Below are positions 16,550 through 26,618 of a stretch of DNA of 26,618 bases, piece by piece. Each line of letters begins with the position of its first letter. Position 1 is the first letter of the stretch. Origin of the DNA: a virus; the IMG/VR virus record IMGVR_UViG_3300009071_000055, positions 1 through 26,618 of that record; one strand, 5' to 3'. The translations under genes were made by a program, and so were the position numbers. Under the pieces are notes generated by a model. That model was not told the origin of the DNA and ran no database searches. It saw only the letters and a list, made by a program, of their open reading frames with translations.

Positions 16550-17577
16550 TGGCCAAAATAGGCAACCGCACTAAAGAGTCTACGGACACTACAGGCACAG
16601 GCACTCTGGATCTCAACGGGGCACCAGTCGGGTTCCGTGGATTTGGCGATGAGCTGAGCTCGGGCGACACAGTCTACTATTTGATTGTCGATGATCCTGA
16701 TAATCCCGTTTCATATGAATATGGCGTCGGCACCTTCACTTCTGGAACACCGGACACCCTGTCGCGGGACACAGTCGAAGGATCATCCAACTCCGGCAGC
16801 AAGGTCAGTTTTGTTGCTGGCACCAAGACGGTCATATCAACAATCACTGTTGATACGTTGGACAATATCCCTCCCGCTGCATCTACCACCGTTGCCGGAA
16901 AAGTAGAACTGGCCACCACCGCTGAAACGACCACTGGCACTGACGCAACCCGCGCTGTCACGCCTGACGGCCTGCACGACATGACCAGCCTAGCTGGTGC
17001 CTCGTGGTTCCTCGACGAAGACGACATGGTCAGCGACTCGGAGACCAAAACAGCCAGTCAGCAGTCGATCAAGGCCTATGTCACATCGTCTATCGCGGCA
17101 GCTGGTGGCATTACTCTCGCCACCATGCAGGCCAGCACCAGCGGCACAAGCATCGACTTCACCTCGATTCCGGCAGGAACGAAACGCATAACAATAATGT
17201 TCGCAGGCGTCTCCACGACCGGGACCAGCGATGTAATTGTGCAGCTAGGTGACTCAGGTGGCGTTGAGACCACCGGCTATAGCGGCAACAATGTTGACTC
17301 GACCCAAAGCGGCGGTGTCGCCAACAACACGGGCTTTATCCTCAATAATTTGCAAGGCGCGGGTGATGGTGCTGATGGAGCGGTGACGCTGACGCTCATG
17401 GACGCTGCTACGTTTTTGTGGGTTATGACTTCCACAATGTCTGATGACGCAAGCACGAATGTTTTCTGGACCTCTGGCACCAAGACACTCTCAGCCGAAC
17501 TTGATCGGGTTCGGATCACGACGGTCACAGGATCGCAGACCTTCGATGGCGGCTCAATCAATATTGCTGTGGAGTGA
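16549..17577 (+). CDS. Tail fibre protein
   Basis: This 342-residue protein has a modular fibre layout. The N-terminal domain (TGTGTLDLNGAPVGFRGFGD, SGDTVYYLIVDD, PDTLSRDTVEGSSNSGSKVS, FVAGTKTVIST) is the particle-attachment domain seen on many phage fibres. A short connector with VAGKVELATTAETTTGTDAT and RAVTPDG follows, a repeat-type motif from phage fibres, here present once. The C-terminal 150 residues (ITIMFAGVSTTGTSDVIVQL, SAELDRVRITTVTG, FDGGSINIAVE) match a receptor-binding tip domain found on unrelated fibres. It presumably recognises the host surface. No chaperone or peptidase domain is seen. Confidence 0.82.
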   Translation: MAKIGNRTKESTDTTGTGTLDLNGAPVGFRGFGDELSSGDTVYYLIVDDPDNPVSYEYGVGTFTSGTPDTLSRDTVEGSSNSGSKVSFVAGTKTVISTITVDTLDNIPPAASTTVAGKVELATTAETTTGTDATRAVTPDGLHDMTSLAGASWFLDEDDMVSDSETKTASQQSIKAYVTSSIAAAGGITLATMQASTSGTSIDFTSIPAGTKRITIMFAGVSTTGTSDVIVQLGDSGGVETTGYSGNNVDSTQSGGVANNTGFILNNLQGAGDGADGAVTLTLMDAATFLWVMTSTMSDDASTNVFWTSGTKTLSAELDRVRITTVTGSQTFDGGSINIAVE

Positions 17578-17581
17578 CCAG

Positions 17582-17827
17582 ATGAAAGGAATCCTCACCA
17601 GTATCGAGGCTTCATATGGAAGTTTTATGACATACAGCGCAGTCACAGTTAACACCGTTGTGATTTCTTCACAGCCAAATGAGACAGCTTGGATTGATAA
17701 CTATGGGATCATCCAGTGGCTGTCAGTTGGGGACAATTGGTTCCTGCTGCTGTCGGCTCTGGCGGTGATTGTTAGACTGGGAATCGATTTACCAAAATTG
17801 ATAAACCACGTGCGAAGCAAAGGATAG
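17582..17827 (+). CDS. Small membrane protein, possible holin
   Basis: I start this gene at ATG 17582, five bases after the fibre stop. An in-frame ATG further upstream would only shadow the fibre gene. The 81-residue product has one clear membrane segment (WFLLLSALAVIVRLGIDL, near residues 54-71), preceded by a weakly hydrophobic stretch (FMTYSAVTVNTVVI) and followed by a basic tail (KLINHVRSKG). A single-span protein ahead of the endolysin is commonly a holin or lysis regulator. No family motif proves this. The ribosome binding site is weak. It ends two bases before the endolysin ATG. Confidence 0.55.
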   Translation: MKGILTSIEASYGSFMTYSAVTVNTVVISSQPNETAWIDNYGIIQWLSVGDNWFLLLSALAVIVRLGIDLPKLINHVRSKG

Positions 17828-17829
17828 GC

Positions 17830-18345
17830 ATGGACAACCGACACTACGTCTCGCAATGCGTCTTGCCAGCGGCGCTCACCCTCCTCCCGTCCAAAATGAA
17901 CGCGGAGGGTGCTGCCCGACTGATGCTGGCCATTGGCCTTCAGGAAAGCAATCTTGACCACCGCGCTCAAGTGAAAGGTCCGGCGCGAGGGTTCTGGCAA
18001 TTCGAAGCGGGTGGGGGAGTGCGCGGTGTTATGACGCACCAGGCAACAGCCAGCATTATCCGGGAGACAATCAAGGTGATGAGTTATGATCCTGAATCCC
18101 ACTTCTCGGTCCACCATCAGAACCTCGCCCACAACGACATCTTGGCGGCAGTGTTTGCGCGTCTTCTGCTTTGGACGGATCCCGGACCTCTGCCAACAGA
18201 GGATGATGTGGAAGGTTCGTGGCAGTACTACATCGACAACTGGCGTCCGGGCAAACCGCATCGCGATCGCTGGGATGCGAATTTTGCGGAAGCGATTCTG
18301 TTGACGACACCTGACCGCAAGGTGCCAAGAAAACGAAAAACATAA
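17830..18345 (+). CDS. Endolysin, lysozyme/transglycosylase-like
   Basis: The 171-residue enzyme would cut the glycan chains of peptidoglycan at lysis. The motif IGLQESNLDHRAQ followed by GPARGFWQFEAGGGVRGVM matches the lytic-transglycosylase/goose-lysozyme-like core, with Glu39 the likely catalytic acid. The AVFARLLLW helix and the C-terminal SWQYYIDNWRPGKPHRDRW (glycan-binding-type tryptophans) complete the domain. There is no signal peptide, so release through a holin is expected, consistent with the flanking membrane proteins. The basic tail RKVPRKRKT may aid binding to the cell envelope. A pinholin/SAR mechanism is not supported. Confidence 0.8.
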   Translation: MDNRHYVSQCVLPAALTLLPSKMNAEGAARLMLAIGLQESNLDHRAQVKGPARGFWQFEAGGGVRGVMTHQATASIIRETIKVMSYDPESHFSVHHQNLAHNDILAAVFARLLLWTDPGPLPTEDDVEGSWQYYIDNWRPGKPHRDRWDANFAEAILLTTPDRKVPRKRKT

Positions 18346-18358
18346 CAGGAGATCGAAG

Positions 18359-18838
18359 ATGTCTCAGTACAGGAAGTTGATTGCTGCCCTGATCGGGGTC
18401 GCTCTCATGGTTGCCAACGACCGTTTCGGCTACAACCTGACCGGAATGGAGACAGAGCTCACTGGCCTCGTGATCGCGGCGCTGACCGCCCTTGGTGTGT
18501 GGGCTGCGCCCAATAGCAACTCAAAAGGCACAACCCTACAATCTCCGTCGATCGTGGCGCTACTGGCGCTGGCCTTGGCCCTCTCCGCTTGTGCTGGTAC
18601 TGTCGGAACGCGGGCAGCGAACGCGGTGGCGATCTCCTGCGACACCTACGCGGTGGCGCTTGAGGCGCTCACACCATACAAGCCCGACCTTTCGGCCTCC
18701 CAGGTCGATCGGGTGGACGCTGCCAATGCTCTGGTGGACCCGGTCTGTCTGCCTGGGAGCGCGATCGATCCGGCGGAAGGCGCTGAGACTGTGCAGGCGG
18801 GAATTGCCCTGCTTCAAACGCTCAAGGAGGGATTCTGA
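18359..18838 (+). CDS. Holin-like membrane protein fused to a lipoprotein
   Basis: One 159-residue frame with a good ribosome binding site (AGGAGA) joins two parts usually encoded separately. Residues 1-50 hold two membrane segments, KLIAALIGVALMV and LTGLVIAALTALGVWAA, as in short phage holins. After a hydrophilic linker (NSNSKGTTLQSPS) comes a third hydrophobic stretch ending in a lipobox, L75-S76-A77-C78. The last 81 residues (AVALEALTPYKPDLSASQVD) are helical and would be periplasmic. With the basic N-terminus (R5, K6) inside, the two spans return the chain to the cytoplasm, which is the orientation signal peptidase II needs at C78. The only in-frame internal start (GTG 18554) lacks a ribosome binding site. 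Whether the lipoprotein part is an outer-membrane spanin is a guess. It lacks the usual proline richness. Confidence 0.65.
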   Translation: MSQYRKLIAALIGVALMVANDRFGYNLTGMETELTGLVIAALTALGVWAAPNSNSKGTTLQSPSIVALLALALALSACAGTVGTRAANAVAISCDTYAVALEALTPYKPDLSASQVDRVDAANALVDPVCLPGSAIDPAEGAETVQAGIALLQTLKEGF

Positions 18839-19011
18839 TGTTCGAACCAAACAGCGCAATCGCACTGCTTTATACAGGCATCAAGCTAACATCACTCGCA
18901 ACTCGCGCCATCGAGGCTGGGTCAAGTGGGGATGAGGTCGAAGCAAAAAAGTATCTGGACGAAGCTCGCGAGCATTATGAGATGGCCCGCTCAGGCTGGG
19001 ATCGAGCCTGA
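18838..19011 (+). CDS. 57-residue phage protein after the lysis genes
   Basis: This short gene starts at ATG 18838, overlapping the preceding stop as TGATG, with CAAGGAGGG just upstream as ribosome binding site. The product begins MFEPNSAIALLYTGIKLTSL and continues as one charged helix, KKYLDEAREHYEMARSGW. It has the amphipathic look of a soluble helical protein, with no membrane span. I do not recognise a family. Its last codons form the 5' arm of a hairpin, so its stop lies within an RNA structure. Confidence 0.6.
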   Translation: MFEPNSAIALLYTGIKLTSLATRAIEAGSSGDEVEAKKYLDEAREHYEMARSGWDRA

Positions 19012-19040
19012 TTCTAGCCTCCCCTCTGGGATCAGGCTCG
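19003..19040 (+). other. Ten-pair hairpin abutting the late terminator
   Basis: CGAGCCTGAT (19003-19012) pairs perfectly with ATCAGGCTCG (19031-19040) around an 18-base loop. The 5' arm includes the stop codon of the 57-residue gene. No U-run follows, and the next base starts a second hairpin. It may stabilise the 3' end of late mRNA or help termination by stacking on the neighbour. Confidence 0.7.
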
Positions 19041-19081
19041 GAAAGGCCACTGCATTGTCGTATCTGCAGTGGCCTTTCTTT
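19041..19081 (+). terminator. Terminator at the end of the late genes, probably bidirectional
   Basis: A perfect 14-pair stem, GAAAGGCCACTGCA (19041-19054) with its complement at 19065-19078, encloses a ten-base loop and runs into CTTTCTTTG. It lies between the last rightward gene (stop 19011) and the convergent leftward operon (stop 19142). The A/T-rich stem base supplies a short U-run on either strand, so it can end both transcripts. Confidence 0.85.
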
Positions 19082-19141
19082 GCCAGCTTCACAGCCACCA
19101 GTCGGGCTGACCGCCGACAGCCCCGGAATCAATTACTATTC

Positions 19142-19534
19142 TCATGACTGGCTATCTCCATTGAGTGCTGTTTCCAGACGGGCAATCGTGCTGAGCAGCC
19201 AATCCTGACTTCCGCTGACATACATCGTGGCTGTGCGGAGCCCTTGTCCGGCATCCGCCAGCGCCACAGTCAGCGCCTCCACCTGACCCTCAAGAGTGGT
19301 GGTAAGATCGTCTGCGTCGATCAGCGCCGCCTTGGTTTCCTCAAATCCCTCGTCTCGCTCCTGTCTCTCCCGCGTCAGCCGTTTGATGGTGGCGTCACGC
19401 TCGGCAAGAGCAGCGGCAGGAACGTACTCACAGACCTCGCCGTCTCCCGACTCGTCGTCCGTACACCATACGATTTCTTCGTCTGGCTCAAATTCAAACA
19501 GGAATATCTTGGGAAATTCAAGATTACGGCTCAT
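19142..19534 (-). CDS. Early coiled-coil protein, unknown function
   Basis: This is the last gene of the leftward small-gene operon, with 130 residues. The N-terminus (LFEFEPDEEIVWCTDDESGD) is acidic. Residues about 38 to 100 form a coiled coil starting ALAERDATIKRLTRERQERD, and the C-terminus ends LLSTIARLETALNGDSQS. The layout resembles Ead/Ea22-like early phage proteins, whose role is not understood. Its ribosome binding site and start (AAGGGGAGCGCGTC then ATG) lie inside the last codons of the upstream gene, with an ATGA overlap. That junction is almost repeated at the upstream gene's own start. Confidence 0.6.
   Translation of the reverse strand: MSRNLEFPKIFLFEFEPDEEIVWCTDDESGDGEVCEYVPAAALAERDATIKRLTRERQERDEGFEETKAALIDADDLTTTLEGQVEALTVALADAGQGLRTATMYVSGSQDWLLSTIARLETALNGDSQS
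19367..19408 (-). repeat. Coiled-coil-encoding direct repeat, copy 1
   Basis: This 42-base segment matches 19603-19644 at 36 of 42 positions by eye, including 18 identical bases at 19391-19408. It encodes the ALAERDATIKRL heptads of the 130-residue protein. Confidence 0.75.
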
Positions 19535-19770
19535 GACGCGCTCCCCTTGGTGGTGAGGCGGTCGATAGCAAATGTGTGCCTCTCTTTGCGCAAGTCATCA
19601 ATCTCCCGCATCAGCCGTTCTATCTCGGCGTCACGCTCGGCAAGGGCGTCTGCGGCTTCAATTTCACGTTGGGCATCTCGCACGCTGTAATAATCGAGAC
19701 CATCCGTACCGCCGTGGCGGCGCTGGAAACCGTTGGCCCGCCCACGCAACCGCTCTATCAGGTCACTCAT
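19531..19770 (-). CDS. Early small protein with a shared coiled-coil segment
   Basis: The 79-residue product has a conserved-looking head (MSDLIERLRGRANGF), an element YSVRDAQREIEAADALAERD and a coiled coil EIERLMREIDDLRKERH. The first part resembles short phage early proteins that begin DLIERLR. The ALAERD coiled coil is shared with the downstream gene, and VRDAQ is shared with the upstream gene, which suggests mixing of modules. The ATG overlaps the upstream stop and the stop overlaps the downstream start, so all three genes are coupled. No function can be assigned. Confidence 0.6.
   Translation of the reverse strand: MSDLIERLRGRANGFQRRHGGTDGLDYYSVRDAQREIEAADALAERDAEIERLMREIDDLRKERHTFAIDRLTTKGSAS
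19603..19644 (-). repeat. Coiled-coil-encoding direct repeat, copy 2
   Basis: This is the second copy of the 42-base repeat, inside the 79-residue gene, where it encodes ALAERDAEIERLMRE. The mismatches to copy 1 cluster in six positions, mostly in the middle. Confidence 0.75.
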
Positions 19771-19988
19771 AACGCGCTCTCCTTGGCCTCGTGCGCTGCC
19801 GCGAGACGGGCGAACGATTGTGCTTGCGCATCGCGGACATGATCGAAGCCGAGAGTTGCTGGCGCTTCATCAGGATAAACAAGGGCGCGGGCTTCGCTGG
19901 GCGTCTTGCCGGCAGCAATGTGCTCAAGAATCTTGTTGTCAGCCCATGCTTCGTTTGCTGCGATGATTTCTTTGAGGTTGTCGGTCAT
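19767..19988 (-). CDS. Small early protein, unknown
   Basis: The 73-residue protein starts MTDNLKEIIAANEAWADNKI and has ILEHIAAGKTPSEARALVYP and DHVRDAQAQSFARLAAAHEA. It is helical and charged, with no membrane segment and no recognised family. A strong ribosome binding site (AGGAGA) precedes the ATG. Its last codons (KESAL then stop) double as the ribosome binding site of the next gene, as occurs again one gene further on. Confidence 0.55.
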   Translation of the reverse strand: MTDNLKEIIAANEAWADNKILEHIAAGKTPSEARALVYPDEAPATLGFDHVRDAQAQSFARLAAAHEAKESAL

Positions 19989-20024
19989 CTGTCTGTCTCC
20001 TGTTTGTGGGATGGGCAGGGCGGG

Positions 20025-20282
20025 TTAGTCGGCTGGATTATCAGCGATGGCACGTGCCAGCACTGCGGCTTCGAACCCGTTGATGAAAGCGTTTATGATG
20101 CTATACGTCTCACGGGCCGTGGCACGGTCTGACAGATCACGCTCTCCAATACCGAACGCGCCCCGTTGACATAGACGATAGCTGCCATAGGCAGCGTCCA
20201 GCGTGTAGGTGTCAGTGTTGGCGACGCGGTTCAGGCGTGCGATGGCGGACCGGAGAGTGGTGATCGTGATGCGCTGTGACAT
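20025..20282 (-). CDS. Small phage early protein (YxLDxAYGxYRL family)
   Basis: The 85-residue protein reads ITTLRSAIARLNRVANTDTY followed by TLDAAYGSYRLCQ and, near the end, RETYSIINAFINGFEAA. The combination of an LN-type helix, a LDxAYGxYRL strand and an (R/K)ExYxxINAFIxG helix recurs in small early proteins of many unrelated phages. Its function is unknown to me. AAAGGAAA precedes the ATG. Gaps of about 40 bases separate it from both neighbours, unlike the overlapping genes downstream. Confidence 0.6.
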   Translation of the reverse strand: MSQRITITTLRSAIARLNRVANTDTYTLDAAYGSYRLCQRGAFGIGERDLSDRATARETYSIINAFINGFEAAVLARAIADNPAD

Positions 20283-20322
20283 GGTTTGGTTTCCTTTGGT
20301 GGTTGGGCTGATATGCGAGGCG

Positions 20323-20544
20323 CTATTTGCTGACAGTCACGCTGCAGGCATCCATGGACTTGACGCGCCCGGATTGCCGCGACTTGACCGCGACCATTCC
20401 ATCTCGCGGATCAAGTGCCGTGGTGATGCGGACTATGGTGCCAACGATGGGTCGTGCCAGCGTGGGGAGCTGGTAGGTCACGACGTCGCCCACATTGATG
20501 GTGGTGAGATCGTGCCGTGTGATGGTGTGTGAGTCTTGAGCCAT
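20323..20544 (-). CDS. Small beta-rich early protein, first gene of the operon
   Basis: The 73-residue protein (HDLTTINVGDVVTYQLPTLA; PIVGTIVRITTALDPRDGMV) is predicted to be mostly strands, with a pattern like a small barrel or SH3-like fold. No catalytic motif or family is recognised. AAGGAA lies just upstream of the ATG. It is the first gene after the candidate promoter and palindrome at 20609-20656, so it may respond to whatever binds there. Confidence 0.5.
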   Translation of the reverse strand: MAQDSHTITRHDLTTINVGDVVTYQLPTLARPIVGTIVRITTALDPRDGMVAVKSRQSGRVKSMDACSVTVSK

Positions 20545-20608
20545 GGTCTTGTTTCCTTAGTGTGGGGTTCGTCGCTTCAGTAAAGAGAGTATGCGCCAGC
20601 CAGATTCA

Positions 20609-20656
20609 GAAGAAAAGGCTTTTCTTCAATTATTTTGAAAAAAGTTTCAGGCGCAA
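20609..20656 (-). promoter_or_regulatory. Candidate early promoter with a 19-bp palindromic operator
   Basis: GAAGAAAAG (20609-20617) and CTTTTCTTC (20619-20627) form a perfect palindrome around one G. On the minus strand, TTGCGC (20656-20651) and AATAAT (20634-20629) lie 16 bases apart, just upstream of the palindrome, which would cover the transcription start. The -35 overlaps the U-run of the terminator. The palindrome is read directly. The promoter is a weak match to a sigma-70 consensus and only tentative. Confidence 0.35.
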
Positions 20657-20681
20657 AAAAAGGGGAGGCCGAAGCCTCCCC
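20655..20681 (-). terminator. Intrinsic terminator with UUCG loop, leftward
   Basis: Read on the minus strand, GGGGAGGC (20681-20674), the tetraloop TTCG and GCCTCCCC (20669-20662) are followed by seven Ts (20661-20655). An eight-pair stem with a very stable loop and a long U-run makes a textbook terminator. It lies 12 bases after the stop of the winged-helix gene and separates the replication unit from the small-gene operon. Confidence 0.92.
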
Positions 20682-20693
20682 AGTTGCCAGAAC

Positions 20694-21059
20694 TCAGAGC
20701 GTAGTCTTGAGAAGCCCTATGGCCCCAACCGGGACATACTTGTTCGCAAGCTGGATAACATATCCCTTGTCACACAGACCAACCACCACATTGTGGACAT
20801 GACCGAGTGATCGACTTCCTAATGCTGCCTGAAGCCCACGAATCGTCATCGCGAAACGCTCTGATTCGTAGTGCTCTATCAGGACACATAGAGCCCTATC
20901 CTCTGACAAGGTGAGTGGCGGTCGAGTGATAAGGATCGCCCTGATGATGTCGCACAGCTTCCGACGGGAGAGCGACACTCCGGTCGCGGTGCAGATAATG
21001 TTTCGGACTCTTGAGATCTGCTCATCGTCCGGATTGATGCTCGATTGCATATCAATCAT
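20694..21059 (-). CDS. Winged-helix DNA-binding protein, LexA-N-terminus-like
   Basis: The product is 121 residues. Its second half (about residues 50-115) reads LTLSEDRALCVLIEHYES, MTIRGLQAALGSRSLGHVHN and VVVGLCDKGYVIQLANKYVP. This follows the winged-helix arrangement of the LexA DNA-binding domain (helix, PTxRxxAxxLG..S...VH..., then a LxxKGYI wing). No protease domain follows. It is the last gene of the replication unit, just before the terminator and the palindrome, so regulation of the following operon is an attractive guess. A second in-frame ATG three codons downstream is possible. The upstream ribosome binding site (AGAGGATGG) is moderate. Confidence 0.6.
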   Translation of the reverse strand: MIDMQSSINPDDEQISRVRNIICTATGVSLSRRKLCDIIRAILITRPPLTLSEDRALCVLIEHYESERFAMTIRGLQAALGSRSLGHVHNVVVGLCDKGYVIQLANKYVPVGAIGLLKTTL

Positions 21060-21081
21060 GGCACTTGCCCATCCTCTGTTA

Positions 21082-21261
21082 TCAAATGTCTACAGACGCC
21101 ATCCGCCGAGCACGTCTCCGTGCCACCTCCCGTGTGAGAGCGCTATCAAGACGCTTCCCATCTCTGTCGAGTATTAGCCAAGGAATCAATTTCCCCCTGC
21201 CCCATTTCCTTATCGTAAATCCACAGCACGACTCTTCCCGGATCAGTGTCAATTTCCTCAT
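21082..21261 (-). CDS. 59-residue basic protein, unknown
   Basis: I start at ATG 21261, which overlaps the primase-helicase stop (TGATG) and has GGAGAG nearby. A GTG one codon earlier is possible. The protein reads MRKLTLIREESCCGFTIRKW, then GKLIPWLILDRDGKRLDSAL, and ends in an arginine-rich helix (TREVARRRARRMASVDI). It is strongly basic, suggesting contact with nucleic acid. I recognise no family. The coupling to the primase-helicase hints at a role in replication. Confidence 0.5.
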   Translation of the reverse strand: MRKLTLIREESCCGFTIRKWGRGKLIPWLILDRDGKRLDSALTREVARRRARRMASVDI

Positions 21262-23462
21262 CACATCTCTCCTTCCATCAGCTCGATCGGCTTGATTGCC
21301 ACCTTCCTTATCATTGCAGCAGCTTCGGCATCCCCCAACCCTTCAAGTGCCCTCTCAAGGGTTGCGTTGATTAGTGCATATTGCCAGCGCCCATGGACCT
21401 TGAATCGCCTCTTCCAGCAAGTGATTCCGCATTCAGTCATGGTCCTTCGCAGTTCGTAGTCACTGTCAAACATGCGACCTTGGATGGTTGCCTTCGCCCA
21501 AGACGACACGTCTTTGATGAATAGAGCACTTGGCTCTTCTCGATCTTTCAACATCTCTGCGAGAGCAGCAGCCTCTCCTTGGGCTTCTGATCGCGACCCT
21601 TCGATCATATCTTTTTTCCTTTCTGTCATCGGAGCACGGTCCGATGGCTCAACATAGTTCCCATAATCATGTGCCCAGCTGGAAATTATGTTCAAGCCTC
21701 CACCATCGAGCCATTTCCGGAAGGCGACGAACTTCTCCTTGGGCCACGGCACCTCTGTGATCTCAGGATAGAACCACCTCCTGTCATCGTTCTCCATCTT
21801 GAGAGCTCGCATCGAGTTGGAGCATGCGAAGATGTGACACCAATTCTCGATCGTATAGGGTCGCTGATACTTCTGGTTCACAGTCACGTCCCGATCAGTG
21901 ATCACCGACTTCAGTGTGTGGTACGCCTTCCAGCTCGATCCGAAGTAGATCTCATTCACAACGACCAGCCTCTTGTTCGCCATCCAGTCATTAAAACTGG
22001 ACAGGATGTCTGCTTCTCCTGGATAGCCCACATTGTTATACCCAACCAGCGGAGCAAGAATGTTAGCACCAAGTGTCGTCTTCCCAATCCCTTGGCGCTC
22101 GGATATCAAAAGCATACCATATCCCATGCGGATGTCTGGCCTCGCAATCAAAGTCGCACACCATATCTCTGCCCGTTTCCGCTCCAGTTCATGGACGAAC
22201 ATATAACTGAGGAACTCCAACCATGGACCTGCATCTCCTGTGGAGGCTCTTACGTTGGTCGGCACATGCAAATTTATGGCCGAGGAGCCGCGAAAGGTTA
22301 CATTTAACCCTTCTTGGTCTGGCCGGTAACAGATGCGTGCGGAGCGCCCTCTATAAGCCTTGACGATCAATCGCGAAGTTTCTGCGACATGAGAGAATGG
22401 AGCCAGCATCCGATTTAGAATCGCCTCAGTTCGTATGATCTCTGGCATCTCAGTGCAGACATAAACGTCCGCCTCTTCAACATAAGCCCACATTGCTCTA
22501 AAGCTATCGCGGAGGGCTGGCGTCGGCTTCCCTTTCTTATTGGGAATAAGGTCAGTTGCCCATGTGGCCGGATGAAGGCAATCGCGGAACGATGGACCAA
22601 TATAGTGACGACCTTCTGATGCAGCTCCGAACATATCTTCTGGGAACTGATCTGCGAGATCGAAGCTTGGTGGCCACTCATCCGTGAACTGGACAACGAA
22701 TGTGGGGATGCGAATTTGCTGAGAGATTAGCGGCACTGCTTCCCTTCCTGGCTGATCGTTGTCTGCTACGATATAAACCCTTTTGATTCCTGCCTTGGCC
22801 AGCTGTCCCCAAGAAGTCCGATAGGGAGACATCGCTCCGCCAATCCATCCGAGGTGCACGGCATTCTCAAGCTCCATCGCCCATGGGTGATCTCGGAAGG
22901 CTTCCTTGGCGGCTCGGTCCTGCCTATCGCACATGGATTGGATTCTTTTAGCAGCCTTGGCCCCTTCATGGATGAAGACCACTGAAGCATCCTTGAGTCG
23001 TTCTGCACCAAAAAGTGGAAGAGGTCCATCAGGTTCGCACATACGCCAAGTGTCGTCATCCCAATATGTCCAGGGGACATAATTCTTCTCACCTTCGCGT
23101 TCGACTCTGACTTGAATCATCAAGATGCTGCCACTGGTATCACGGAACTCAAAGATGTTCTCCTTATCAGCCTCTTCGATCATTGGAGGAGGGTTCGAGA
23201 TTCGAGTTACAGGGACAACACTTGGCCAAGAGACTGAGGTGCATTCGTCAGCGATCGATTTGCGCTCAAGATCTGTCGGTTCGTACTCGTGGGAAGAACA
23301 TTCAACAGTTCCATCTTTCGCAAATCGGATCACTGCAAGATCTTTCCAATATGATCCCTTCACCTCTCTGATGACTGCCGTCTTGAGAGATCTTGCTTCT
23401 GCCCCGACGCGGTTGAGATATAGACGAATTGCATTTACATCGTTTAGGTCTTTGATCTTCAT
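21261..23462 (-). CDS. Primase-helicase with TOPRIM-like and SF3 helicase domains
   Basis: The 733-residue protein would prime and unwind DNA at the phage fork. Residues 160-240 hold a TOPRIM-like module: VVFIHEGAKAAKRI with Glu166, then VYIVADNDQPGREA with Asp234 and Asp236. The helicase region has Walker A ERQGIGKT (455-462), a Walker B-like RLVVVNEI (Glu504), a sensor FACSN (545-549) and an arginine-finger-like DDRRWF (559-564). This agrees with D5/DUF5906-type SF3 helicases of phages and plasmids. No zinc finger is evident at the N-terminus, so template recognition may differ from DnaG-type primases. The last 150 residues are charged and may contain a winged helix. The gene overlaps the polymerase by four bases and the 59-residue gene by one. 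Confidence 0.85.
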   Translation of the reverse strand: MKIKDLNDVNAIRLYLNRVGAEARSLKTAVIREVKGSYWKDLAVIRFAKDGTVECSSHEYEPTDLERKSIADECTSVSWPSVVPVTRISNPPPMIEEADKENIFEFRDTSGSILMIQVRVEREGEKNYVPWTYWDDDTWRMCEPDGPLPLFGAERLKDASVVFIHEGAKAAKRIQSMCDRQDRAAKEAFRDHPWAMELENAVHLGWIGGAMSPYRTSWGQLAKAGIKRVYIVADNDQPGREAVPLISQQIRIPTFVVQFTDEWPPSFDLADQFPEDMFGAASEGRHYIGPSFRDCLHPATWATDLIPNKKGKPTPALRDSFRAMWAYVEEADVYVCTEMPEIIRTEAILNRMLAPFSHVAETSRLIVKAYRGRSARICYRPDQEGLNVTFRGSSAINLHVPTNVRASTGDAGPWLEFLSYMFVHELERKRAEIWCATLIARPDIRMGYGMLLISERQGIGKTTLGANILAPLVGYNNVGYPGEADILSSFNDWMANKRLVVVNEIYFGSSWKAYHTLKSVITDRDVTVNQKYQRPYTIENWCHIFACSNSMRALKMENDDRRWFYPEITEVPWPKEKFVAFRKWLDGGGLNIISSWAHDYGNYVEPSDRAPMTERKKDMIEGSRSEAQGEAAALAEMLKDREEPSALFIKDVSSWAKATIQGRMFDSDYELRRTMTECGITCWKRRFKVHGRWQYALINATLERALEGLGDAEAAAMIRKVAIKPIELMEGEM

Positions 23463-26341
23463 GAACTTGCCTCTGTTGAAATTGGTTCTTCATCAATGTC
23501 TCCGATAAAACGTGCCTGCTTGACGCTTATCATCCTGAAAGATCCTGGAGGGACTTTGCCCTTGATCGCATAGAGGCATTTTCGGACTCTTCCGCGCTCA
23601 AGAATTTCTTTCCCCAGCCGATCATAGTCGAATCTCCCAATCTTGGCGAAGATGGTGTCTGTGTCATCAGTGAGTCGGAGATTCAGGCTGGATGTCTTGC
23701 CATCAGTTATGACGACACCACCTCGTTTGGCAACATTGATTGATTCATTCTCATCGCGCGGATTGATGTTTGAGATTACACAAAAGACCAACACCTCCTC
23801 CCATGTTGTCCCTTCGCGTATGTCTTCGATTGCGACTGGAGGTGTGTGTATGTTCCTAGAACTTGGATCTGGGAGGTGCTTCTTGAAAGCATCTCGGATA
23901 GGCCATAAACTGTCGATGTCCGTCTTTGGATTGCTCAACAATTTTAATGCCTTTCTTGGCATAGGCTCTCCAAGAGAGCGTGCATGGAGTATCTGCTGAG
24001 AGAGCTTCGGGCCTATTCCTTTCACCATGGACAATGGACCTACAAGGGTCTTGGCCTTGTTAGCTCCTCGAACTGTGATCCCCCACTTTAGCGTCGAAGT
24101 GTCAGCCTCTACAGGAACATAATCATAACCCTCTCTGACCATCTCCCGCAGCAGCGACATCTGACGTTCAGGGTCAGTCTCATGAGATAGTGTGGCTGCT
24201 GCAAACTCAAATGGGTGATGAGCCTTTAGCCAGCAGCACCAATATGAAATCATCCCATAAGCTGTAGCATGACTCTTGTTAAAACTCCACGATCCATACG
24301 CGCAAAGATCATCCCAGACCTTGGTCGCATCTTCCGTCCTGACCCCTTTAGAGATTGCTGCAGTTTTCCATCGGTCTCCATACTGGTTGAAGAACTCGAC
24401 CCCTAGAGATTTGCTCATGGCCTTGCGCAGTGCAGTCACATCGCCCCAGCTGAGACCGCCAATGTTCCGGGCAATCTCCATCACCTGCTCCTGATAGATC
24501 ACAATCCCCAGTGTCTCTGAGAGATAAGGCTCAAAGACTGGGTGGATGTATGCTATTGGCACCTTGCCATTCTTGCGCTTTACCCACTCGTTGGTGCCCC
24601 CAGAGGCAGAAGGTCCAGGACGGGCCAATGCTGTAATCGCCACAATATCGTCAAAGCTCTCCATCTTAACTGAAGTGGTCACACTTTGAACTGCTGCCCC
24701 GTTCCACTGGAAGATTCCTGCGAAGGATCGGTCATTCAAAATAGCGAATGCTGCCGGATCATCCAGAGGTATTTTCTCCAACGTGTCATAGGGCAACCCT
24801 GCAAAGTCCAGAACGTCTTCAAACACAGAAAGCTGTGTAAGTCCAAGAGCGTCGATCTTGAGAAGGTTCAAGTCTTCCGCGTCGATCTTATCGCACATGG
24901 TCGCACCAGTGCGCTCATCAACTGCGACAATATCGCTGATCGGACGCGCTGCGATGACGATGCCCGCTGCGTGCTGGGAATGGTGGCGAGGATGGCCTTC
25001 CATCCGAGATGCAACCATTATCTCTGGAAATTTCTCGAGCAACTCTTTTCCCGCAGGAAGGGAATTCAGCGTATCTTCCAGCGTGTCAAGAGCTCGCGCG
25101 TCTCCCCCACTGCGCTCGATTAGGCTGGACGCAACCGCGTCAACCTTCCAAGGCGGAATGCGCAGTGCTGCAGAAGCCTCTTTGAGTGCCGATCGTGCCT
25201 TGAAGAGAGAGACAGTTCCCAGACGGGCAACATTCTCAGCGCCATACTTGTCATTGATGTAAGCGAACACCTGATGTCGTTGCTGGTCAGAGAAGTCTAT
25301 GTCGATGTCCGGGAGATCATCCCGATTGATGTCAATAAATCGCTCAAAGATCAACCCATGAGGAATAGGGTCAACTGTGGTGATCCCAAGAAGATAACAC
25401 ACGAGAGAGCCGCAAGAGCTTCCCCGCGCTGGGCCCACGATCATGCGAGACCGAGCCCACTGGCAGATATCTGCGACAAGATAGAAATAGTCCTCATAGT
25501 CCTTCTTGACGATCAGACTCAGCTCGCGCTCCATCCGCGCCCGATAGATCGGGTTTTCCAAAGGGCATCCTATTCTGCGCGCACCAAGCTCGCACATCGC
25601 CTTTAGCGTATCAGGACGATCTGGGTGAACCAACTCTGCGCGCTGGAGAGATGCTGTCGATTGCGCTAGGAGCCCATAGGAGCGGTCCAATGCTTCTTCC
25701 TGTAGGGTTGTGCCAATATCAAGCCTATCGATGCTACGCGACCACTCTTCGCGTGTTAGAATGTGTTGTGGATACGATTGTGTCTCTGCGGAGCGCCCAA
25801 TGGCGACCTCATAAAATCCGCGATCGCTTTCTCGCACGAAACGATTGTCTCCTGCAGCGACAGGGATCATGCCACGCTCAAGTGCGGTTCTGTAATAACC
25901 TCTTGATGTAGAGGGTCCAAGCCCGAATAGAGTTCCCGGCTCAATATTATCGAAAAGTGTTTTGTGGCCAGCAATTTTGAAGACGCCCTGTGCACTCTGT
26001 GCTTGTTCATAGGTGAGAAGAGGTTGATATCTGAACTGTCTGGTGGCAGTCGATACCAGCCGATTGATTGGGCCTAGATCTTCTTGAGCGATAAAAGTCC
26101 AATGATCAACATTGGGCTTCTTCGCAGAGACTGAGTCAGTCACTCCAAGCTCGACACCAAACACAGGAATAAGGCCTGCGAGCTTTGCTGCCTTTGACCA
26201 TCGAACCCAACCGAAGGTGCTGGCTCGGTCGGTGATTGGGGCATAGGTCGCGCCGACCTCCTTCAGTCGATCCATGACATCGGAGATACTTCCGGCAGCG
26301 GCGCGGAATGAATATCCATTTCTCAATCGTGGACTGTCCAT
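23459..26341 (-). CDS. dnaE: DNA polymerase III alpha subunit (DnaE-like), phage-encoded
   Basis: This 960-residue C-family polymerase would replicate the phage genome. The PHP region (about 1-260) is recognisable but degenerate. GPARGSS (303-309) marks the nucleotide-binding part of the palm. The catalytic acids are D347 and D349 in PDIDIDF (344-350) and D497 in LLKIDALGL. Fingers include the SFNKSHATAYG block. A helix-hairpin-helix (MVKGIGPKLSQQIL) and an OB-like domain (ITDGKTSSLNLRL) follow, and the C-terminus is shorter than E. coli DnaE (about 1160), so tau binding may be lost. I could not find a convincing clamp-binding motif. The ribosome binding site GAGGAGA precedes ATG 26341, which overlaps the exonuclease stop (TAATG). 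Confidence 0.93.
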   Translation of the reverse strand: MDSPRLRNGYSFRAAAGSISDVMDRLKEVGATYAPITDRASTFGWVRWSKAAKLAGLIPVFGVELGVTDSVSAKKPNVDHWTFIAQEDLGPINRLVSTATRQFRYQPLLTYEQAQSAQGVFKIAGHKTLFDNIEPGTLFGLGPSTSRGYYRTALERGMIPVAAGDNRFVRESDRGFYEVAIGRSAETQSYPQHILTREEWSRSIDRLDIGTTLQEEALDRSYGLLAQSTASLQRAELVHPDRPDTLKAMCELGARRIGCPLENPIYRARMERELSLIVKKDYEDYFYLVADICQWARSRMIVGPARGSSCGSLVCYLLGITTVDPIPHGLIFERFIDINRDDLPDIDIDFSDQQRHQVFAYINDKYGAENVARLGTVSLFKARSALKEASAALRIPPWKVDAVASSLIERSGGDARALDTLEDTLNSLPAGKELLEKFPEIMVASRMEGHPRHHSQHAAGIVIAARPISDIVAVDERTGATMCDKIDAEDLNLLKIDALGLTQLSVFEDVLDFAGLPYDTLEKIPLDDPAAFAILNDRSFAGIFQWNGAAVQSVTTSVKMESFDDIVAITALARPGPSASGGTNEWVKRKNGKVPIAYIHPVFEPYLSETLGIVIYQEQVMEIARNIGGLSWGDVTALRKAMSKSLGVEFFNQYGDRWKTAAISKGVRTEDATKVWDDLCAYGSWSFNKSHATAYGMISYWCCWLKAHHPFEFAAATLSHETDPERQMSLLREMVREGYDYVPVEADTSTLKWGITVRGANKAKTLVGPLSMVKGIGPKLSQQILHARSLGEPMPRKALKLLSNPKTDIDSLWPIRDAFKKHLPDPSSRNIHTPPVAIEDIREGTTWEEVLVFCVISNINPRDENESINVAKRGGVVITDGKTSSLNLRLTDDTDTIFAKIGRFDYDRLGKEILERGRVRKCLYAIKGKVPPGSFRMISVKQARFIGDIDEEPISTEASS

Positions 26342-26618
26342 TATACGTCTCCTCTTTCTCGAAGCTCATTAAACACGCGCACAAGAGCCTCAACATCAGT
26401 CCGCGCTCGATGGGCAGATGCAAAGGCCTCTCCGAACAGCTCCTCGTGAAGCATGGTAAGGGATAGTCGGAACCCTTTCATCCACTCGGTCGCCTCGACA
26501 GTACAGATCCGCACAACTGGCCATTTGATTCCCATACCTGCTCGAGACATTTCACTTTCCACCACGAACATATCGTAGGACAGATTGTGAGCGACGACTG
26601 CATCCGCACTCTCGATGA
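26341..26618 (-). CDS. DnaQ-like 3'-5' exonuclease, N-terminus outside the window
   Basis: The frame is open to the window edge. The visible C-terminal part has Exo II (AVVAHNLSYDM, with the HN..(Y/F)D signature) and Exo III (HRARTDVEA, the HxAxxD motif) near the end, followed by a helix ALVRVFNELRERG. This is the DEDDh exonuclease pattern of the epsilon subunit and relatives. Exo I (DxE) would lie outside. Being first in the operon and coupled to the alpha polymerase through TAATG, it probably supplies proofreading. An ATG at 26571 occurs within the Exo II region, so it is not the true start. Confidence 0.85.
   Translation of the reverse strand, partial: IESADAVVAHNLSYDMFVVESEMSRAGMGIKWPVVRICTVEATEWMKGFRLSLTMLHEELFGEAFASAHRARTDVEALVRVFNELRERGDV

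Follow-up and report, generated by a model that had tools for sequence, protein, structure and literature searches.

The question raised by this locus is whether one open reading frame in the window, 26,618 nucleotides of a virus record, encodes two parts of a phage lysis system in a single polypeptide that signal peptidase II would then divide. A first-pass annotation had proposed that one frame joins two membrane spans, a lipobox and a periplasmic domain, with Cys78 on the outer face after a third span. This description held up on inspection. The frame is open from ATG 18359 to TGA 18836-18838 (159 codons, zero internal stops), and its hydrophobic spans begin at about residues 7, 36 and 65 (15-residue window; KD 2.0, 2.1 and 2.7). 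The loop charges are +2 at the N-terminus, −1 in loop 1 and +1 in loop 2, and therefore predict an N-in protein with Cys78 outside; they agree with the proposed topology and are opposite to the reversed one that had been named as a refutation. The features of a lipoprotein signal found within the chain are the LSAC lipobox, a hydrophobic stretch reaching KD 2.7, K56 on the cytoplasmic side in the linker between span 2 and span 3, which is predicted to be cytoplasmic, and the N-in/C-out orientation given by the loop charges. AlphaFold2 placed helices at residues 2-23, 32-48 and 63-78, followed by a three-helix C-domain at 82-157, in a model with an overall pLDDT of 66 and values of about 75-87 in the C-domain. 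Under the enterobacterial +2 rule, the residue after the lipobox cysteine decides sorting, and A79 at +2 of Cys78 predicts outer-membrane sorting of the lipoprotein half. The features of the locus are listed in the table.

Table. Features of the fused gene and its neighbors in the window
Feature	Position	Strand	Remarks
81-aa one-span protein, candidate holin before endolysin	17582..17827	+	Position as that of the AH2 holin; one hydrophobic span
Endolysin, lysozyme-superfamily fold (phrog_3108)	17830..18345	+	phrog_3108 E 1.1e-39
Fused gene, 159 aa	18359..18838	+	In order: holin-like part of two spans, linker, lipobox-bearing third span, lipoprotein domain of three helices
Two-span holin-like domain "type A," residues 1-57	18359..18529	+	Resembles standalone 58-aa ORF (L171) and 51-aa ORF (L182)
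Third span/internal signal peptide (predicted), about residues 65-77	18551..18589	+	KD 2.7 from residue 65; K56 ahead
GTG (Val66), possible internal start named earlier	18554..18556	+	Judged not used; anti-SD duplex +1.2 kcal/mol
Lipobox L75-S76-A77-C78	18581..18592	+	Fits [LVI][ASTVI][GAS]C; signal peptidase II predicted to cut ahead of Cys78 (codon 18590-18592)
Mature lipoprotein domain (predicted), residues 78-159	18590..18835	+	Three predicted helices; conserved Cys94, Cys130
57-aa small helical ORF	18838..19011	+	One-base overlap with fusion (TGATG)

The length of the fusion frame is by itself only mildly unusual, being matched in 16 of 2000 shuffles, and the frame is raised above chance by homology, because the same fused architecture occurs in L170 and L178 and the same frame in an independently assembled contig. 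That contig, from another metagenome, matches window positions 18390-26618 at 99.94% over 8229 nt with the fusion frame kept. The homologous fusion in L170, a genome of the class of a Xanthobacteraceae MAG, was detected at an E value of 5.6e-20, and the second lies in the viral contig L178. These two fusions share 70% identity with each other and 35-37% with that of the window, show the same charge alternation as the window's protein, and differ by a linker indel that preserves the frame. Their pairwise dN/dS is 0.26 in the two-span part, 0.42 in the linker and third span and 0.37 in the lipoprotein, indicating purifying selection on both halves and on the linker. No fused match was found among the phage records searched, and the L177 lipoprotein had no match among plasmids.

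Relatives with the module in fused or split form came from viral contigs and from genomes sampled from the class of the Xanthobacteraceae MAG. L177 carries the parts as two genes that overlap out of frame by 4 bp (ATGA), with 48% identity in the lipoprotein domain; further split versions are present in L230 and in L182 and L184, which are prophages within a single genome. L190, L191 and L192 have the lipoprotein after the endolysin and lack the two-span gene. The lipobox cysteine and the two cysteines at the positions of Cys94 and Cys130 are invariant in seven aligned homologues, and L230 keeps all three. The existence of split relatives, with the L177 genes arranged such that a one-base error could fuse them, is what an assembly or sequencing error merging two genes would have in its favor. 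However, two assemblies agree and two further records hold homologous fusions whose linker indel respects the frame, and we thus ruled out an artefact, the chance of which we regard as negligible. Judged from these sequences, two neighboring lysis-cassette genes have truly been fused in frame in the window, and the fusion is real and rare.

The two-span parts fall into type A (window, L171 and L182) and type B (L170, L178, L177 and L184). The window's two-span domain is 42% identical to the standalone 58-aa ORF of L171 (E 2.8e-5) and matched phrog_17495, annotated as "membrane protein," at 1.6e-4 and the holin family phrog_4712 at only 0.45, with DUF7439 below the cut-off. The L177 two-span gene, the counterpart of the L170 and L178 part, matched the holin family phrog_34682 at 1.5e-6. 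We accordingly use "holin-like" for the window's two-span part on the basis of weak profile matches and treat a holin function as putative; another holin or holin candidate is also present in the window and in L178. Types A and B could not be joined into one family, as the hhalign probability was 19 and the alignments were shallow. In the lipoprotein tree, the window groups with the split L177 (83/96), apart from the other fusions, a grouping that needs two changes, and a single fusion origin was recovered in 10% of bootstrap trees. The dissimilarity of the two types and the grouping of the window with L177 favor more than one fusion, or an exchange of parts; thus, fusion or first-half exchange probably occurred more than once. 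Fusion was seen in just one of the 80 best type B loci from IMG/VR.

Whether the frame yields one precursor or two products depends on where translation starts. ATG 18359 is preceded by the Shine-Dalgarno sequence AGGAG, with a duplex energy of −7.4 kcal/mol, and all true starts examined across these cassettes had energies between −4.2 and −12.1 kcal/mol. The standalone lipoprotein genes had a ribosome-binding site in all six starts examined (anti-SD duplex, −4.2 to −8.2 kcal/mol), and their signal peptides open with an n-region of one or two charged residues (K, H or R) ahead of the hydrophobic stretch. Initiation inside the frame, at GTG 18554 or nearby, would yield the lipoprotein as a second product in addition to the long form, and each of the three fused genes does have start-like codons close to its third span. 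Unlike every standalone relative, however, none of the three has a charged n-region after any internal start; GTG 18554 lacks a ribosome-binding site, and the other internal starts have weak ones at most. The three fused genes have kept the lipobox and lack internal start signals. We ruled out GTG 18554, which had been put forward as evidence that would overturn a single precursor, on the grounds of the missing ribosome-binding site and charged n-region, and we consider internal initiation in general very improbable. Given the unfavorable duplex at GTG 18554 and the uncharged n-regions, translation as a single precursor from ATG 18359 is predicted to be much likelier.

The precursor could also remain uncut, as a protein held in the inner membrane by three spans and exposing its three-helix domain to the periplasm, because Lgt and Lsp process the internal signal poorly or never. 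The helix of the fold model is continuous up to residue 78, and we found no description of internal lipoprotein signals behind a membrane hairpin in the literature searched, both of which fit such a protein. Against it stand the lipobox and its cysteine, which each of the three fused proteins retains (LSAC, LAGC and LAGC) although a chain that stayed whole would not need them, and the free lipoprotein made by the split relatives; we judge it unlikely. The retained lipobox and the free lipoprotein of the split relatives instead lead us to infer that the precursor is cut into the same two mature proteins. In the scheme that we propose, one precursor would be made from ATG 18359, its first two spans would form a membrane hairpin whose ends both lie in the cytoplasm, and the third span would act as an internal lipoprotein signal peptide. 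Cys78 would be modified by the host and signal peptidase II would cut before it, leaving a 77-residue hairpin part in the inner membrane and sending an 82-residue lipoprotein to the outer membrane.

The first-pass annotation had tied the fusion to two steps of lysis, and its surroundings support a position in a lysis cassette. A tail fibre gene, the 81-aa one-span protein and the endolysin lie upstream, the endolysin directly so, and a small ORF overlaps the fusion downstream, after which the coding strand switches. The endolysin is 46% identical to gp42 ("lysozyme") of Burkholderia phage AH2, and its model (pLDDT 91) gave muramidases and lytic transglycosylases as the best PDB alignments, from Z 11.6 down. 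Family searches with the 81-aa protein gave no match. The 57-aa ORF has the best Shine-Dalgarno sequence of the cassette (−11.9 kcal/mol), and a small ORF follows the lipoprotein in all 10 distinct loci. The maximum KD of this ORF is 0.81-1.70 across loci and 1.21 in the window, against 2.17 for the i-spanin-like ORF of L075; with a weak hydrophobic stretch at best, the 57-aa ORF is not clearly an i-spanin. No Rz/Rz1 pair was found in the window, nor any other plausible lipoprotein gene, the remaining lipobox frames being antisense to real genes.

The position of the lipoprotein is that of a spanin; neither this nor the conserved small ORF behind it had been noticed in the first-pass annotation. 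An i-spanin-like ORF and an overlapping lipoprotein (o-spanin-like) ORF come next in 32 of 77 classified related two-span loci, as counted by a crude heuristic that mislabels some ORFs. The phage contig G429 carries an endolysin, a type B gene and a spanin-like pair between the tail-fibre end (88.6% nt) and the downstream gene (93% nt) that it shares with the window. The spanin-like pairs at this place in relatives and in G429 indicate that the lipoprotein and the small ORF occupy the slot of a spanin pair. The window domain also has two periplasmic cysteines (C94 and C130), as o-spanins most often do (240 of 526), and u-spanins have none (PMC6139136). Like an o-spanin, the fusion lies in an endolysin/holin neighborhood with an adjoining partner gene; the N-terminal lipobox of o-spanins is found in the standalone homologues, and in the fusion Cys78 instead stands behind two spans. 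A u-spanin was rejected, since the order is reversed and no span follows Cys78.

Against a plain spanin stand the lack of a clear i-spanin, the absence of sequence similarity and a generic helical fold. Profile and sequence searches with the lipoprotein domain revealed no convincing similarity to named families, NCBIfam and PDB sequence searches returned nothing meaningful, and a Foldseek search of viral models with the fusion fold gave no match at E 0.001 or better. PDB structural alignments of the fusion reached Z 9.8 (DnaK lid), a level that any three-helix bundle gives. The lipoprotein half therefore appears spanin-like by position and not a member of the spanins.

The same half might instead be a late surface lipoprotein, acting for example in superinfection block or receptor masking, that merely shares the lysis operon. 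Residues 1-38 of the L182 lipoprotein, signal peptide included, weakly match the Cor family of superinfection-exclusion proteins (E 0.011), and in L025 spanins are present alongside a similar-looking fusion. We nevertheless find this improbable, as the lipoprotein sits exactly in the spanin slot beside either of two unrelated kinds of endolysin, one with a lysozyme fold and the other an M15 peptidase, has two conserved periplasmic cysteines, and is encoded in a window devoid of spanins. After endolysin action, the lipoprotein, together with the 57-aa partner, would most likely act in the final lysis step as a spanin-like outer-membrane factor. Cleavage, outer-membrane sorting and a spanin-like role are what we infer for the fusion, and we put the chances at even that a fused precursor is cut by signal peptidase II and that its lipoprotein serves the last lysis step with the 57-aa partner in a spanin-like manner. 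More tentatively, the Lsp-cut hairpin and lipoprotein might constitute a lysis polyprotein that, with the small ORF, represents an undescribed spanin type, fused repeatedly and missed by surveys because its lipobox is internal; we hold this broader proposal to be possible but the more doubtful.

Known systems match the fusion in part. Two-component spanins (Rz/Rz1 of lambda; PseT.3/PseT.2 of T4) likewise have an outer-membrane-type lipoprotein after the endolysin and a short overlapping partner ORF, and T4 PseT.2 also has two periplasmic cysteines. In the fusion, however, the lipoprotein signal is internal and joined to a two-span protein, the partner ORF has no clear span or periplasmic coil, and the lipoprotein is helical rather than proline-rich, with no sequence similarity found. 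The unimolecular spanin gp11 of T1 combines a lipobox and a membrane span in one gene, whereas the spans of the fusion precede the lipobox, so that a single chain is unable to connect the two membranes; the fusion also has two periplasmic cysteines where u-spanins have none. Small two-span phage holins and holin-like proteins (phrog_34682, phrog_17495 and DUF7439) share the two short spans, N-in C-in topology and lysis-cassette position, but the fusion adds a C-terminal lipoprotein, and the window domain's own matches are weak. A parallel outside phages is Bradyrhizobium FbcH, a cytochrome b-cytochrome c1 precursor in which the polytopic part comes first and an internal signal peptide is cut to give two membrane-bound proteins. 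FbcH, unlike the fusion, has a non-lipoprotein signal and belongs to a respiratory complex.

The first-pass annotation knew of no described example, and our literature search, which covered a minority of the subscription journals, likewise found no description of a holin-lipoprotein fusion. A survey covering 677 phages that infect Gram-negative hosts reported only embedded, overlapped, separated or unimolecular spanins, and none in 91 phages (PMC6139136). That survey relied on N-terminal localization signals, and none of its four architectures has an internal lipobox (PMC6139136); a lipoprotein behind a holin-like hairpin would slip past surveys of this kind. The fusion appears to be an undescribed variant of the phage lysis cassette, with a well-supported architecture and a predicted mechanism. 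If cleavage takes place, the gene would give a fixed 1:1 supply of inner-membrane and outer-membrane lysis parts and offer a clean way of asking whether an internal signal is a substrate for Lsp, and the fused and split relatives are ready-made natural controls.

Several further arrangements were observed in the related loci. A 228-aa ORF of L025 (3737-4423, + strand) has two spans, a third ending in LGGC115, and then a hydrophobic stretch and a tail, and a separate Rz/Rz1-like pair lies just before it; such a fusion thus need not replace spanins. Kinship of its tail with the lipoprotein domain was not supported (hhalign probability, 2.8), and the ORF is possibly an unrelated third fusion. Behind the standalone type A two-span gene of L171, a 78-aa ORF is overlapped at its end by a 71-aa lipoprotein (1159-1374, − strand), and the two look like an overlapped spanin pair. 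L141 encodes a 77-aa standalone lipoprotein (889-1122, + strand) immediately after the endolysin. In L183/L191 and L189/L190, an M15 peptidase endolysin is followed directly by a three-Cys lipoprotein and the small ORF, and in L192 by one extra ORF before them, in each case with no two-span gene.

Within the window, positions 16915-17577 and 19603-19786 are near-identical to G429 (88.6% and 93% nt, respectively) and the lysis cassette between them differs; it is a swapped lysis module. On the opposite strand, by eye only, a 960-aa product (23459-26341) resembles the DNA polymerase III alpha subunit and a 733-aa product (21261-23462) resembles a primase/helicase.
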